A stretch of 35,181 nucleotides of DNA from a virus, in the IMG/VR virus record IMGVR_UViG_3300036768_000131, positions 1 to 35,181 of that record; one strand, 5' to 3'. This document shows positions 17,222 to 22,212 of the stretch, piece after piece. The notes under the pieces were generated by a model. It searched no databases, was not told where the DNA came from, and was given only the letters and a program-made list of their open reading frames with translations. How positions within the stretch are numbered: the stretch's first letter is position 1; the number at the start of each line of letters is the position of its first letter. The translations under genes and the position numbers were made by a program.

Positions 17222-17446
17222 TCACCATCCGCCCATCCACTCCCGCATCAGGCGCGCAATCTCAGGCAGCTCTTCCAGCCTCGCGATCCCGCCACCTGGA
17301 AGCGCATACACGCCGGGTATCGGCTCATAGACCCTCAGCCCGGCGCGATTACGCCTCACCGTGATCGCCGGGGTGAACCTGAACCCGCCGACGGACACGA
17401 TGCCGATGTCATCCTGCGGTTGTGGATTGCTTTTGATTCTCTTCAT
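17222..17446 (-). CDS. Hypothetical small protein, last gene of the leftward operon
   Basis: This 74-residue protein begins MKRIKSNPQPQDD, then has GGFRFTPAITVRRNRAGLRV and PIPGVYALPGGGIARLEELP. ATG at 17446 follows GAGG at six bases. I do not recognise the family. The beta-rich pattern suggests a small folded domain. It ends only 15 bases from the convergent Rz gene, and no hairpin terminator is visible between them, so transcripts may run into each other. Confidence 0.55.
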   Translation of the reverse strand: MKRIKSNPQPQDDIGIVSVGGFRFTPAITVRRNRAGLRVYEPIPGVYALPGGGIARLEELPEIARLMREWMGGW

Positions 17447-17463
17447 GCCTACCTCGCAACTCA

Positions 17464-17943
17464 TCATTTGAAAACCACCGTCACGCCATCGTCGGCGCGG
17501 CGCACTTCGGCAATGCCGCGCCACTCCAGATGATCGAAGGCGTCACGCAAATACGGATCGGCCTCGACCTGCTCGCTGGTGAGCTTCCAGTGCCCATGCT
17601 CTAGCGGCTGACCTTCTGTGCAGACGACAGACTGAGCCGCATCGTCGGCAATGCGCAGGGCGCGGCTCAAGTCGGCCCCGTGATCGCATCCGCACTCGCC
17701 AGCAGCAACGCACTCCATCGCAAGGAAGTTCTCAGGCCGTCCAGCCGCAGGGCGCGGGCACAGAGGTTGCCTGAACAGCGGCACCACGCGGCCCTCAAGC
17801 CCGCGATTGCACACGCGCAATCCGCTTGCTGCGGCGCGCTCTGTGTCATACACGCCATAGACGCGCCAGCCAGAAACAGGCAAGCCGAACTCGCCTGTCC
17901 CCCTCACCTCAAAAACCCATGCGTCCGGCTTCAGGTCTTTCAT
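17464..17943 (-). CDS. Hypothetical protein with a Cys-rich loop (159 aa)
   Basis: This 159-residue protein has a first part with VFEVRGTGEFGLPVSGWRVY and YDTERAAASGLRVCNRGLEG, and a middle that carries MECVAAGECGCDHGADL, which holds cysteines and a histidine at close spacing and may bind metal. The last 40 residues (YLRDAFDHLEWRGIAEVRRA) look like a helix then strands. ATG at 17943 overlaps the stop of the upstream gene. No family is recognised; role unknown. It belongs to a group of small leftward genes that may act early against the host. Confidence 0.55.
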   Translation of the reverse strand: MKDLKPDAWVFEVRGTGEFGLPVSGWRVYGVYDTERAAASGLRVCNRGLEGRVVPLFRQPLCPRPAAGRPENFLAMECVAAGECGCDHGADLSRALRIADDAAQSVVCTEGQPLEHGHWKLTSEQVEADPYLRDAFDHLEWRGIAEVRRADDGVTVVFK

Positions 17944-18782
17944 GCCACCGGACCCCTCACAGAGAACCTCGTTCCATCCATCACTACTTCGCGCACGCCG
18001 CGCATGAACGGCTCAATGTCGATCTCGTGGCCTTCCTTCATCCTCCTCCGATGGGATGCGACTAGATGCAGGATCGGGCGCTTTCGGCCCGTCGCAGTCA
18101 CCGGAAGTTCGCGGGCGTATAGCAGGCTCTTGACTTCTTCGGCGGTGCATCCGATGGACGCCTTGCCACCTCCAGTCCCTTCATCCGCCGTGATCTCCCA
18201 GCAGAAGCGGCGGTCTGCATGGGCTTGAAGCGCTGTACAGATCATTTCTAGCACGGCTTCGCGATCTCGCGTGATAGACCAGTCGATGCCTGGAGAATTG
18301 GACAAGCGCACTTGTCCTGCGGCGTCGATCCAACACCAGACCGTCATTCCGATCAGCAGGCCGCGCGGGTGTTTCCAGTCCTGCGAAACCCACGTCGCCC
18401 GGTATTGCGGCATGTCGGCTGGCATGGCCTTGACGCCAAGAGCGCGCAGGTCGGATGCCGAGACATGGCCGTTGATGCGGCGCAGGTAGCAGGCGTGTGG
18501 CGACTTCCGTTCGTCGGTCGGCACGCAGAAGATGCAGGTGCGAGTTTCTGGAAGAGGGTCGTTCGTCAGGTCGAAGCCGTATTGGTGCGGAAGCACGAGG
18601 CGGTCCTTGCCTGGCATGTGCGGTATCGTCTCGCGGATACCCCGCATGATTCCCGGCGTCACGCGGGATGCGCGCACCTTCATGTTCGATACGGATCGCT
18701 TGACCGGCTTGATGTAGCAGGTCTCGATCATGTTGGCGATTTCGTCCTCGAACTCTTCTTTTATCCAGCGGTCGTCGGTCAT
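17940..18782 (-). CDS. Unrecognised 280-aa protein in the leftward early operon
   Basis: This 280-residue protein starts at ATG 18782 (MTDDRWIKEEFEDEI), which avoids overlap with the HNH gene; an upstream in-frame ATG at 18866 would add 28 residues but overlaps HNH by 70 bases. Visible parts include RTCIFCVPTDERKSPHACYL (a C-x2-C and later Cys, possibly a metal site), GHVSASDLRALGVKAMPADM, GIDWSITRDREAVLEMICTA and a basic region with ASHRRRMKEGHEIDIEPFMR. It is not a known family to me. The gene is coupled to the next by ATGA. The layout suggests a globular cytoplasmic protein. Confidence 0.6.
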   Translation of the reverse strand: MTDDRWIKEEFEDEIANMIETCYIKPVKRSVSNMKVRASRVTPGIMRGIRETIPHMPGKDRLVLPHQYGFDLTNDPLPETRTCIFCVPTDERKSPHACYLRRINGHVSASDLRALGVKAMPADMPQYRATWVSQDWKHPRGLLIGMTVWCWIDAAGQVRLSNSPGIDWSITRDREAVLEMICTALQAHADRRFCWEITADEGTGGGKASIGCTAEEVKSLLYARELPVTATGRKRPILHLVASHRRRMKEGHEIDIEPFMRGVREVVMDGTRFSVRGPVA

Positions 18783-18796
18783 TCCGTACTGCCTCA

Positions 18797-19261
18797 CTAT
18801 TTCTGTCGTTGCTGGCGCCGAGGCCCGAAGTTCTTGCGAGCGCGCGCCCATGAACCACCGCGCCAAATGTCCCTAATGGTCTGCTCGCTGACACCATAGC
18901 GTTCGGCCAGCATGCGGGCGGTGTGCGCGTTGCGCGTGTCTTTCTCCGCCTTGATTTCGGCAACGTCCGCTGGCAGCAGCTTGGTCTGAATGCTTGAGCG
19001 GTTGGCGTCTGCCTGCGTCCCGCAGGCGAGATGGTGCGGGTTGACGCATGCCTTCTTGTCGCATGTGCTGTAAACGACCAGCCCGCGCGGGATCGGTCCG
19101 AACAGCATTTCCCACATCCAGCGGTGCGCGAGCGTGTCCCTGCCGCAGAAAGTCAGCTTGCCGTGGCCGCACTCCGTCATGTGCCCAAGCCACTCCCAGC
19201 AGTCATCCGGGCGCTTGCCGAGCTTCACTCGCGGCTTGATTGCTTGCCCATGATTAGGCAT
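18797..19261 (-). CDS. HNH endonuclease-like protein with C-terminal HTH
   Basis: This 154-residue protein has an HNH/treble-clef core: CWEWLGH, then AHRWMWEMLFGPIPRG and CDKKACVNPHHL, with the Cys pair and N-P-x-H-L all present. The C-terminal half (AEIKAEKDTRNAHTARMLAE, RYGVSEQTIRDIWRG) is a helix-turn-helix used to recognise DNA in phage HNH proteins. At the place where the usual first catalytic His of the motif stands (V-x-H-x-C-D), this protein reads VVYSTCD. The His is therefore replaced by Ser, so the nuclease may be weak or inactive. This could be a homing nuclease or a relic of one. Confidence 0.82.
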   Translation of the reverse strand: MPNHGQAIKPRVKLGKRPDDCWEWLGHMTECGHGKLTFCGRDTLAHRWMWEMLFGPIPRGLVVYSTCDKKACVNPHHLACGTQADANRSSIQTKLLPADVAEIKAEKDTRNAHTARMLAERYGVSEQTIRDIWRGGSWARARKNFGPRRQQRQK

Positions 19262-19279
19262 GGCTCACCATCCTTGTGG

Positions 19280-19495
19280 TCACACAGAACAAGGGGACAC
19301 CCCGGCGTCTGTGTGCGCAAGTTCACCGGCGCGATTCTTTCCGCACCCTTTACACCGCATAGCCGGTATTACGCGAGTGTGGTAATAGACGTCGTTGTAA
19401 CCACTCGTCAGTTTTGCCGTGCGACCACAATGCTCGCACTCCATTTCAGCACTGAAGTCATTACCATACCTGCTCAAGATTTTCACGATCTTCAT
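19280..19495 (-). CDS. Small zinc-ribbon protein (71 aa)
   Basis: This 71-residue protein starts at 19495, directly after a GGAGG on the minus strand. It has two CxxC knuckles, in CEHCGR and CKGCGK, about 29 residues apart, which is a zinc ribbon. Between them TSGYNDVYYHTRVIPAM is a beta hairpin. Proteins of this sort can bind DNA or other proteins; this one is unassigned. Its start lies four bases upstream of the stop of the preceding gene in transcription order. Confidence 0.7.
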   Translation of the reverse strand: MKIVKILSRYGNDFSAEMECEHCGRTAKLTSGYNDVYYHTRVIPAMRCKGCGKNRAGELAHTDAGVSPCSV

Positions 19496-19496
19496 T

Positions 19497-19823
19497 TCAT
19501 CCTCCGCAAATTGGATTTCCAGCGGCACCGCAGTATCCCCTGCGCCGCATGTGCGCAGACGATAGCGGCTCGATCCACCCAGCCGGGTTCCAGCCGTCCA
19601 GGTCGCCGTCAAACGGCCGGAATTGCCAGTCGTCTATGCCGACAGGCTTCTTCCCGGCTTCGCTCTCGCTGAGCGCGCTTGGGTTGTCAGCAACCCAGAA
19701 CCTTTGCGCACCATCGGATGGGCCGGTGATTTCCGCCCACCGCCAGAATGCTCAGCCACTCGCCATGCACAAACGCTTGATAATCGGGCACAGCTTGTTC
19801 CTTGCTTCGCTGTCTGTAAGCAT
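19497..19823 (-). pseudogene. Small Cys-rich phage protein interrupted by an in-frame TGA at a conserved Cys codon
   Basis: Read from ATG 19823 on the minus strand (GAGGAAG upstream), the frame begins MLTDSEARNKLCPIIKRL, then CMASG, then a TGA at 19752-19754 (codon 24), then AFWRWAEITG and on to a natural stop at 19497-19499. The frame is open for 84 more codons, with ordinary codon use, and includes RRRGYCGAAGNP near its end. Phage proteins of this type, as I recall, read C-P, then C-x-x-S-x-C followed by a W-R-W segment, and later G-Y-C-G-x-A-G. The TGA stands precisely at the second Cys of C-x4-C. It is most simply a point mutation TGC or TGT to TGA. The ribosome binding site and both flanks are intact. 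Confidence 0.75.
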
Positions 19824-19834
19824 GTCTGCCTTCC

Positions 19835-20020
19835 TCAAATCACCAACCAAATGACAATTGCCGCGACGCTTGCGCACAGAATGACCGCAGCCCGCATCCT
19901 GCGGCGCAGGCGCGCCTCAACCCACCGCTCCGACGGCTTCATCTCGTGGCTGCGCGTCGGGTCGCACATGTCGAACGCATCCCACAGCCCTTTGACGATG
20001 ATTGGAACATCCCGGCTCAT
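19835..20020 (-). CDS. Small protein with C-terminal membrane helix (61 aa)
   Basis: This 61-residue protein has a soluble charged N-terminal part (VKGLWDAFDMCDPTRS and RWVEARLRRRMR) and a C-terminal hydrophobic helix (AAVILCASVAAIVIWLVI). It is probably tail-anchored in the inner membrane with the N-terminus in the cytoplasm, as the Arg cluster sits just before the helix. GGAGG precedes the ATG with good spacing. It overlaps the stop of the upstream gene by four bases. The function is unknown. Confidence 0.6.
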   Translation of the reverse strand: MSRDVPIIVKGLWDAFDMCDPTRSHEMKPSERWVEARLRRRMRAAVILCASVAAIVIWLVI

Positions 20021-20334
20021 TTCCGATCCTCCACATACAGCTTGTGCAGATACTCCATCGCCTGCTGCACGCCAGCGCCAGACCTGGCACGGTATGACTC
20101 GACGTGCTCATCCAGCATCCGAGACAGCACCGACCGGACAACGGCACCGATTGCGGCATCGTCCCCGGCTTCGATTGCCTCCGATATCGCCGCCGCTTCA
20201 TGTCCGTTGGGCGCAAGATCGCCTATGAAGTCTGGAGACCGCATGACTTCCTCGCGCATCTGAACCAGATCTTCCGGCTCATCCGGCCCCATGCACTCAC
20301 GACATCCGCAGTAGGTCATGTCTGAGTAGTTCAT
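20017..20334 (-). CDS. Hypothetical acidic protein with CxCxxC motif (105 aa)
   Basis: This 105-residue protein begins MNYSDMTYCGCRECMG, with a C-x-C-x2-C cluster that could bind metal, followed by acidic helices (PDEPEDLVQMREEVMRSP, then SEAIEAGDDAAIGAVVRSVL). The C-terminal part (QQAMEYLHKLYVED) is helical. It is coupled to RecT by an ATGA overlap and has a GGAGG. It is not recognised. Being next to RecT suggests early expression. Confidence 0.6.
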   Translation of the reverse strand: MNYSDMTYCGCRECMGPDEPEDLVQMREEVMRSPDFIGDLAPNGHEAAAISEAIEAGDDAAIGAVVRSVLSRMLDEHVESYRARSGAGVQQAMEYLHKLYVEDRK

Positions 20335-21233
20335 GGCGTGGCCTCCCCATCCTCGCTATCGACCAACGCCAGCAGGTCATCGCTTGGCGCGCCTTCGCTC
20401 TGCGGCTCAGCATCATGCTGCGGCTCTTGCGGCTGCTGTGGCTCCAGGATTTCGCCCGTCTCCGCGTCGATCACCAGCGGGTTGTCCTGCGGCAGGCCCA
20501 GCTCCGCGCGTTCGTCTGCCTCGATGGCCGCGGCAAGCTCTACGCTGATTGGCAGCCACTTGAACAGCCGCCGAACCACGGTCTTGAGCGCCATCGCCTC
20601 GAAGTGCGTCACCCATGGGCCGGAGTTGCCAGCGCGCGATTGCGCACGCACCGCCTCGATCTCGCGGCGGCTCATGACGTCGAACTGGATGCCGCCGTCC
20701 TTCAGCTTTGCGACGGCATACACAAACCGCAGCTTGTCCGGCTGCGAACGGTTCGGGTTGTCGAAGTCAGGGACGTGGCGCAGGTTGCTGTCAAGCCCCA
20801 AGGTCACCTCGAACGTGTCGCCCTCATACACAGGGCGGGCCTCGATGCTGGCGATCTGCCCGCTGCGGCGTGCCAGGTCGATCATGCCGCGATAGCCGAC
20901 GATGAACTGGACTTCGGTGCGGTTGGCCCTGCGATTCTCGAACGGAATCAGGTAGGCATGCCCCAGCGGGCCTCCCGGCTCAAGGCCAAGCTGGGCGCAG
21001 GTCATGAGCGCGCCCATGAAGCTGTGCTGGTCGCAGCGCGCCAGCGCCGGGTTCTTGCGCACCTCCGTCAGCGCGACGCGCGCAAGACGGTCTGCGGTGA
21101 CGTGCTTGGGCAAAGCCAACGCCATTTGCGCCTTGATGCGCGGATCGGTCAGCAGCGCGGCGATGTCGCCGCCTGCCTGCTTGCGGGTGGTTGGGGCTTT
21201 GCCAGTGACTGCTGCCTTCAGTGAAGTTGCCAT
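20331..21233 (-). CDS. recT: RecT single-strand annealing protein
   Basis: This 300-residue protein is a standard RecT. Family features: AALALPKHVTADRLARVALT, then LTEVRKNPALARCDQHSFMG, ALMTCAQLGLEPGGPLGHAY, FIVGYRGMIDLARRSG, YEGDTFEV, and MSRREIEAVRAQS followed by GPWVTHFEAMALKTVVRRLF. The C-terminus is a low-complexity acidic, Gln/Pro-rich tail. RecT anneals DNA in recombination with the YqaJ exonuclease encoded just upstream; together they could circularise or concatemerise phage DNA. AAGGAG precedes the start. The downstream gene overlaps its stop. Confidence 0.96.
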   Translation of the reverse strand: MATSLKAAVTGKAPTTRKQAGGDIAALLTDPRIKAQMALALPKHVTADRLARVALTEVRKNPALARCDQHSFMGALMTCAQLGLEPGGPLGHAYLIPFENRRANRTEVQFIVGYRGMIDLARRSGQIASIEARPVYEGDTFEVTLGLDSNLRHVPDFDNPNRSQPDKLRFVYAVAKLKDGGIQFDVMSRREIEAVRAQSRAGNSGPWVTHFEAMALKTVVRRLFKWLPISVELAAAIEADERAELGLPQDNPLVIDAETGEILEPQQPQEPQHDAEPQSEGAPSDDLLALVDSEDGEATP

Positions 21234-21234
21234 G

Positions 21235-22212
21235 TCAAATCTCCTTCAGGATGAACCGGCGCGAGCCGGGGGTTTCGGTGGTGTGCGCTGCGATTACGTC
21301 ATCTGGCGCGTGCAGCGCTGCCGCGACCTCTTTCCAATCCGTGCGGCGGGTCGGCTTGGCAGCCCTCCAGGTCACCAGCGGTTGGCCGTTGAGCGTGAGC
21401 GCCGACCGCTCGCCAAGGGCAAGCTTGATCCGATCAATTGCGTTTTGGAAACAGACCTCTGCCTGCTCCAGGCGAGCCTTCGCGATTCGTGCGGCGTTGT
21501 AGGCGGCCAGCAGGGAATCATCAGCCTCGACGGCATCGCCGTTGTCGGACGGGAACAACCGCTCAACGTCCTTTGCCGTGGTCGGCTCCGGTGGCTGCCG
21601 CGTCAGCACGTGCCGGTGCCAAAAGTCATGCGCACGCTCCAGCATCGCCGCGATGGTCTCATCGTCCCGGTGGATGCGGCGGATCACCATCCGCTGCCCG
21701 CCGATCAGCGCGGCAACGTCGGCCCACTGCTGGCCAGTGATTGCCAGATACCACATGACCTGCGCCTGGTAATGCACCGGCACAGCGTCATCATCGCCGT
21801 CGCGGCCCCAGTCTCCAGCCTTGTAGGCGCTGGTGGTCTTGACCTCCAGCAGTCCAGCCGCGCCCAGCAGCGTGCCGCCGTCATCGGCCACACGCACGCG
21901 GCTACCTGGCGCGACAATGGCGCGGTCGATGTTGCCGATTGCCCACTCATGATCCGGGTGGCGCAGGATGCGATTGACGCGCTGCACAGAGCTTCCGGTT
22001 CGCCGTCCGTACTCGCGCGCAATCTCCCCCTCGAACAAGGTTCCCCAGTATGCGGCTTCGGCGTTGCCGATTTCTTCGGTCGATTGGCCGGTCTTGTCCA
22101 GCCAGACATCGAGGGCAGTTTTCCAGCCCTTCGGCGTCAGGCCGAGGATGGCGGCAATGTCAGAGCCGCCGATTCCGCTGCGGCGTTCAGCGAGCCATTG
22201 CTCACGGTTCAT
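21235..22212 (-). CDS. YqaJ-like viral exonuclease
   Basis: This 325-residue protein has the lambda-exonuclease/YqaJ fold signature: GIGGSDIA at 14-21, E61 in WGTLFEGEI, D96 in GNIDRAIV, and E123-x-K125 in LLEVKTT. The later HYQAQVMWYLAITG is also typical. It digests one strand of double-stranded DNA ends, giving single strands for RecT. The C-terminal third, with ALGERSALTLNGQPLVTWRA, is the helix-strand extension seen in many phage members. The gene pair is transcribed leftward and the start has a strong AAGGAGG. Confidence 0.94.
   Translation of the reverse strand: MNREQWLAERRSGIGGSDIAAILGLTPKGWKTALDVWLDKTGQSTEEIGNAEAAYWGTLFEGEIAREYGRRTGSSVQRVNRILRHPDHEWAIGNIDRAIVAPGSRVRVADDGGTLLGAAGLLEVKTTSAYKAGDWGRDGDDDAVPVHYQAQVMWYLAITGQQWADVAALIGGQRMVIRRIHRDDETIAAMLERAHDFWHRHVLTRQPPEPTTAKDVERLFPSDNGDAVEADDSLLAAYNAARIAKARLEQAEVCFQNAIDRIKLALGERSALTLNGQPLVTWRAAKPTRRTDWKEVAAALHAPDDVIAAHTTETPGSRRFILKEI

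Follow-up and report, generated by a model that had tools for sequence, protein, structure and literature searches.

The interrupted gene and its surroundings

The window (the whole stretch of DNA that was analysed, 35,181 bases with a G+C content of 64.6%) is an IMG/VR virus record. It carries head, portal and lambda-like tail module genes on the plus strand, and a leftward gene block which includes genes for RecT, a YqaJ-like exonuclease and SSB. Within a block of small accessory genes on the minus strand (Table 1) lies a gene which, when translated from 19823 to 19497, gives 108 residues with a single internal TGA at codon 24; it reads MLTDSEARNKLCPIIKRLCMASG, then the stop, then AFWRWAEITG...RRRGYCGAAGNPICGG and a terminal stop, which is also TGA. 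A good Shine-Dalgarno-like sequence, GAGGAAGG, is found 5′ of the ATG; translation thus confirmed a preliminary description of this DNA, made from the sequence, which had reported a 108-codon frame with a ribosome binding site and one TGA at 19754-19752. After codon 24 a further 84 codons are open, up to the gene's own TGA; there is no frameshift and only the one stop, and the residues after it match relatives (see below) up to GYCGxAGxP. Because the sequence 3′ of the TGA still aligns with relatives through this GYCG end, the gene appears to have been intact recently and, its second half being recognisable, it would either not have been dead for long or would still be read. An Rfam search found no RNA at the TGA site.

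Table 1. Features of the window at and around the interrupted gene
Positions	Strand	Feature	Evidence or measurement
17222..20334	-	Block of small accessory genes holding the interrupted gene, including an HNH endonuclease gene (18797-19261)	
19497..19823	-	Interrupted four-cysteine family gene, 108 codons, one internal TGA	Translation; UOF76820.1 match; alignment
19752..19754	-	Codon 24, an in-frame TGA where the family has an invariant Cys	Translation and alignment
19497..19751	-	Part 3′ of the TGA, still protein-like (AFWRW, DDWQF..PAGWIEP and RRRGYCGAAGNP align with relatives)	Alignment with MW202426 and L122
19724..19742	-	Hairpin CGGUGG-GCGGAAA-UCACCG, considered as SECIS and rejected	Loop starts 15 nt after the UGA; -6.5 kcal/mol
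20331..22212	-	Genes for a RecT-like annealing protein and a YqaJ-like exonuclease, just upstream; used to find close phage relatives	

The accessory block has RecT on one side and the lysis genes on the other and, besides the HNH endonuclease, it encodes a Cys-rich protein of phrog_14808 and several orphans. None of its genes was detected in the examined flanks of contigs that are 79-82% alike in the RecT/exonuclease region, and in L151 the RecT gene and the Rz-like gene are only about 1 kb apart, compared with about 3 kb in the window. This suggests that the interrupted gene is a dispensable accessory gene and, as its block is missing from close phage relatives, its loss was probably tolerated. 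TGA is the stop codon of most long ORFs of the phage and of the interrupted gene itself, and a genome-wide recoding of TGA (code 4 or 25) was rejected on that account.

A four-cysteine family of small phage proteins

When phage records were searched by tblastn, a single relative was found: UOF76820.1, a hypothetical protein of Myoviridae sp. ctsTn925 (MW202426.1), with 33% identity to the window protein over 96% of the length. The ctsTn925 gene is intact and has a Cys codon at the place of the window's TGA: its CCASGCMAWR aligns with CMASG-stop-AFWRW of the window, and a second half of the form W-Q-F...W-V-x-P...GYCGLAG is common to both. The window, ctsTn925 and the family member L122 all have this longer second half (W-[QE]-F-x-P ... 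W-[IV]-x-P). No full-length relative closer than about 33-36% identity was found; a protein scan of IMG/VR and genome contigs gave no close relatives of the window protein, and plasmids gave none. The contigs sharing RecT/exonuclease were also considered as a source of a close copy of the gene, and none was present in the flanks examined.

For the wider family, IMG/VR was searched at the DNA level for C-x-[GA]-[ST]-x-C-M-A-W-R-W, which is present in at least 120 stretches, mostly encoding small phage proteins; most of these start with T-E-x-E-A-x-x-K-x-C-P and finish with G-Y-C-G-L-A-G-x-P. The window protein has the N-terminal feature (MLTDSEARNKLCP, with T3, A7 and C12 conserved) and the C-terminal feature G-[YF]-C-G-x-A-G-x-P (as GYCGAAGNP), and between them everything in C-x-[GA]-S-x-C followed by x-x-W-R-W, except for the second Cys, which is the TGA. 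In an alignment of 54 rows, ten columns are invariant (A7, C12, C19, S22, C24, W27, R28, G96, C98 and G99), four of them Cys, so that the family pattern given in the preliminary description (C-P, C-x-x-S-x-C, W-R-W, G-Y-C-G) proved right. So did its placing of the TGA at the second Cys of C-x4-C, as codon 24 is aligned to Cys in all other rows; rows picked by the search pattern are biased towards Cys at this place, and the Cys is also present in relatives found without that bias, namely MW202426, Dolphis, Ssp-JY42 and 11 genes from whole genomes.

Beside the stop, the window has A-F where the pattern has M-A. We rejected decay or a double frameshift as the cause: the C-A-M-W-R-W of Pseudomonas phage Dolphis at this place shows the A-F to be natural variation. 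In the region of Dolphis gp111 (L267:1501-1740) the annotated start is at 1534 and the family frame stays open 5′ of it; the annotated gene therefore appears to begin too late, without the C-P part.

Neither Pfam nor PHROGs has a family for the window protein or for the typical four-cysteine members tried, and we regard these proteins as an apparently unnamed, widespread family of phages and prophages (L002-L121, L122, L166, L169-L177, L267 and L268). The product would probably be a small protein that binds metal or is stabilised by disulfides. A structural search with the predicted model of the window protein (pLDDT 77, pTM 0.54) gave nothing significant, and a search of PDB sequences gave no match either.

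Codon use at the second cysteine in relatives

Among 106 distinct viral copies in the matches listed, the second Cys is encoded by TGC in 88 and by TGT in 18. The strict family motif with TGA for this Cys had no match in IMG/VR, whereas the TGY form had at least 120. With two more relaxed TGA patterns, 85 stretches were recovered; when translated they had neither the N-terminal nor the C-terminal parts of the family, and they are unrelated sequence. The weak HMM scores seen among them are a product of the motif that the pattern itself imposes. A profile search of genomes, with stops read through, gave 11 genuine family members, each of which has the Cys and is free of stops, from some 770 genome slots (two overlapping draws of 369 and 398 genomes), with scoring limited to the top 15-16 candidates of each genome. 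Three genome matches with internal stops (L167, L168 and L179) were considered as interrupted relatives and set aside as chance matches outside the family. All of these searches covered records other than the window's own and those very near to it. A look at relatives for TGC, TGT or TGA at codon 24, as had been proposed, thus found TGC and TGT only, and no TGA relative; genes for bacterial selenoproteins usually, though not always, have further homologues with a TGA there.

The hairpin after the TGA and the candidate hosts

Selenoprotein genes are classically recognised by a TGA that aligns with a conserved Cys and has conserved sequence on both flanks (PMC1088965). The only good hairpin downstream of the window's TGA corresponds to the 5-bp stem noticed earlier (CGGTG with CACCG) plus one G-U pair, and one of its arms consists of the codons CGG TGG of the conserved R-W. 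The bacterial SECIS model has 3-9 nt in the loop, 4-16 bp in the stem and a G in the first two loop positions, at 16-37 nt from the UGA, with a minimum free energy of at most -7.5 kcal/mol and usually GG or GU in the loop (PMC13188914). The window hairpin agrees with this in loop length, stem length and G, and misses it in spacing (15), energy (-6.5 kcal/mol) and loop pattern (GC), which bears out the earlier remark that the stem does not clearly look like a bacterial SECIS. The minimum-free-energy fold after the TGA has the loop AAAUCA, without a G; folds of 45-81 nt after the TGA do not surpass those of shuffled sequence (z between -1.4 and 0). When 5,294 codons of the phage's other genes were used as controls, 17.5% had a hairpin as good, as did 7.5% of TGY relatives. 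Our scan demanded an unbroken stem, without bulges, and for E. coli fdhF it found the geometry (spacing 18, loop GGUC) with a score of only -2.0; the energy criterion is therefore weak, and the SECIS test is best taken as a narrow miss, not as a firm rejection. The absence of TGA relatives weighs more against selenocysteine than this test does.

Relatives of the portal protein (54-67% identity) are encoded in genomes of Thermomonas, Xanthomonadaceae, Porticoccaceae and Burkholderiaceae, and in one alphaproteobacterial and one deltaproteobacterial genome, with weaker relatives in Pseudomonas. SelA was found in two of eight genomes with related portal genes (the deltaproteobacterial genome and one Pseudomonas), all eight being candidate hosts only; the six in which it was not found, several of them MAGs and so incomplete, include those of Thermomonas, Xanthomonadaceae, Porticoccaceae, Burkholderiaceae and Alphaproteobacteria. 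A tRNA search of the phage contig found no tRNA, and so no tRNA-Sec. A covariance model for tRNA-Sec was uninformative as a test, since it also matched ordinary tRNAs in control genomes.

Origin of the interruption

We propose, with a probability of roughly 0.68, that the TGA is an ordinary, lone nonsense mutation in an accessory gene that was intact until recently. The ancestral gene would have encoded a four-cysteine phage accessory protein of roughly 108 residues, and a nonsense change in the window phage would have made a TGA of the codon for the second Cys in C-x4-C. Ribosomes would then stop after 23 residues and the protein would be lost, with the remaining frame not yet decayed; this loss would probably be tolerated, the gene being in a variable accessory block. 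A one-base change of a Cys codon had been put forward as the simplest account and it is also the best supported, the relatives examined having TGC or TGT and none TGA.

What counts against this proposal is the position of the stop, precisely at a conserved Cys, for which the chance is about 11% if any of the four is allowed. With codon 24 restored to Cys, 36 single-base changes make a stop in the gene; four of these (11%) are at the four conserved Cys, and 12 are at Trp. About one in nine random nonsense changes would therefore strike a conserved Cys, and the coincidence is weak. The view in the preliminary description that a chance stop would seldom fall on this codon holds for codon 24 alone (1/36) and was overstated for the pattern of a TGA at a conserved Cys (4/36). 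Such cases will be common when many windows are scanned, and we would caution against claiming a selenoprotein only from the alignment of a TGA to a conserved Cys, because in such a Cys-containing gene about 1/9 of random nonsense changes land on one.

Alternatively, the TGA could be an error that arose in sequencing, amplification or assembly, or it could be a minority allele fixed in the consensus, the population having a Cys codon and an intact gene. That the TGA is the single difference within an otherwise intact frame, and that no other contig supports it, would fit with this. However, all of the long genes of the contig that we looked at are intact, so its error rate is low, and a single substitution error exactly at codon 24 is no likelier than a mutation. 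We therefore consider an error unlikely, and less likely than a real nonsense mutation.

UGA is the leakiest stop in bacteria, and the frame after the TGA is still protein-like; low-level readthrough by a near-cognate tRNA (Trp or Cys) might thus give some full-length protein and leave the gene partly functional. Against this, the next base is G (UGAG), which is not a noted leaky context, no relative has the same arrangement, and the product would usually have Trp replacing the conserved Cys. Readthrough had been offered as an alternative to the nonsense change; nothing positive was found for it and we regard it as improbable.

Most improbable is that the UGA is recoded as selenocysteine at the second Cys, with host machinery and a slightly non-canonical SECIS: the TGA/Cys pair with conserved flanks (Cys being read in relatives) and a downstream hairpin with G in its loop point towards it, but this earlier suggestion is left unsupported by the lack of a TGA relative anywhere searched, of a SECIS fitting the model, of SelA in most of the candidate hosts and of a tRNA-Sec in the contig, and the motif does not appear to be a known thiol redox motif. 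If true, it would make this a phage selenoprotein, of which we found no report in the open-access literature.

Comparison with known systems

The locus resembles bacterial selenoprotein genes of the E. coli fdhF type in having an in-frame TGA at the place of its homologues' Cys, followed by a downstream hairpin; unlike them, it is without a TGA homologue, its hairpin falls outside the SECIS model, and most candidate hosts are without SelA. The lone nonsense mutation that we favour would instead place it with nonsense-interrupted phage accessory genes, which likewise have one premature stop in a gene of a variable block, with the rest of the frame still recognisable; what sets the window apart from these is that its stop happens to fall on a conserved Cys.
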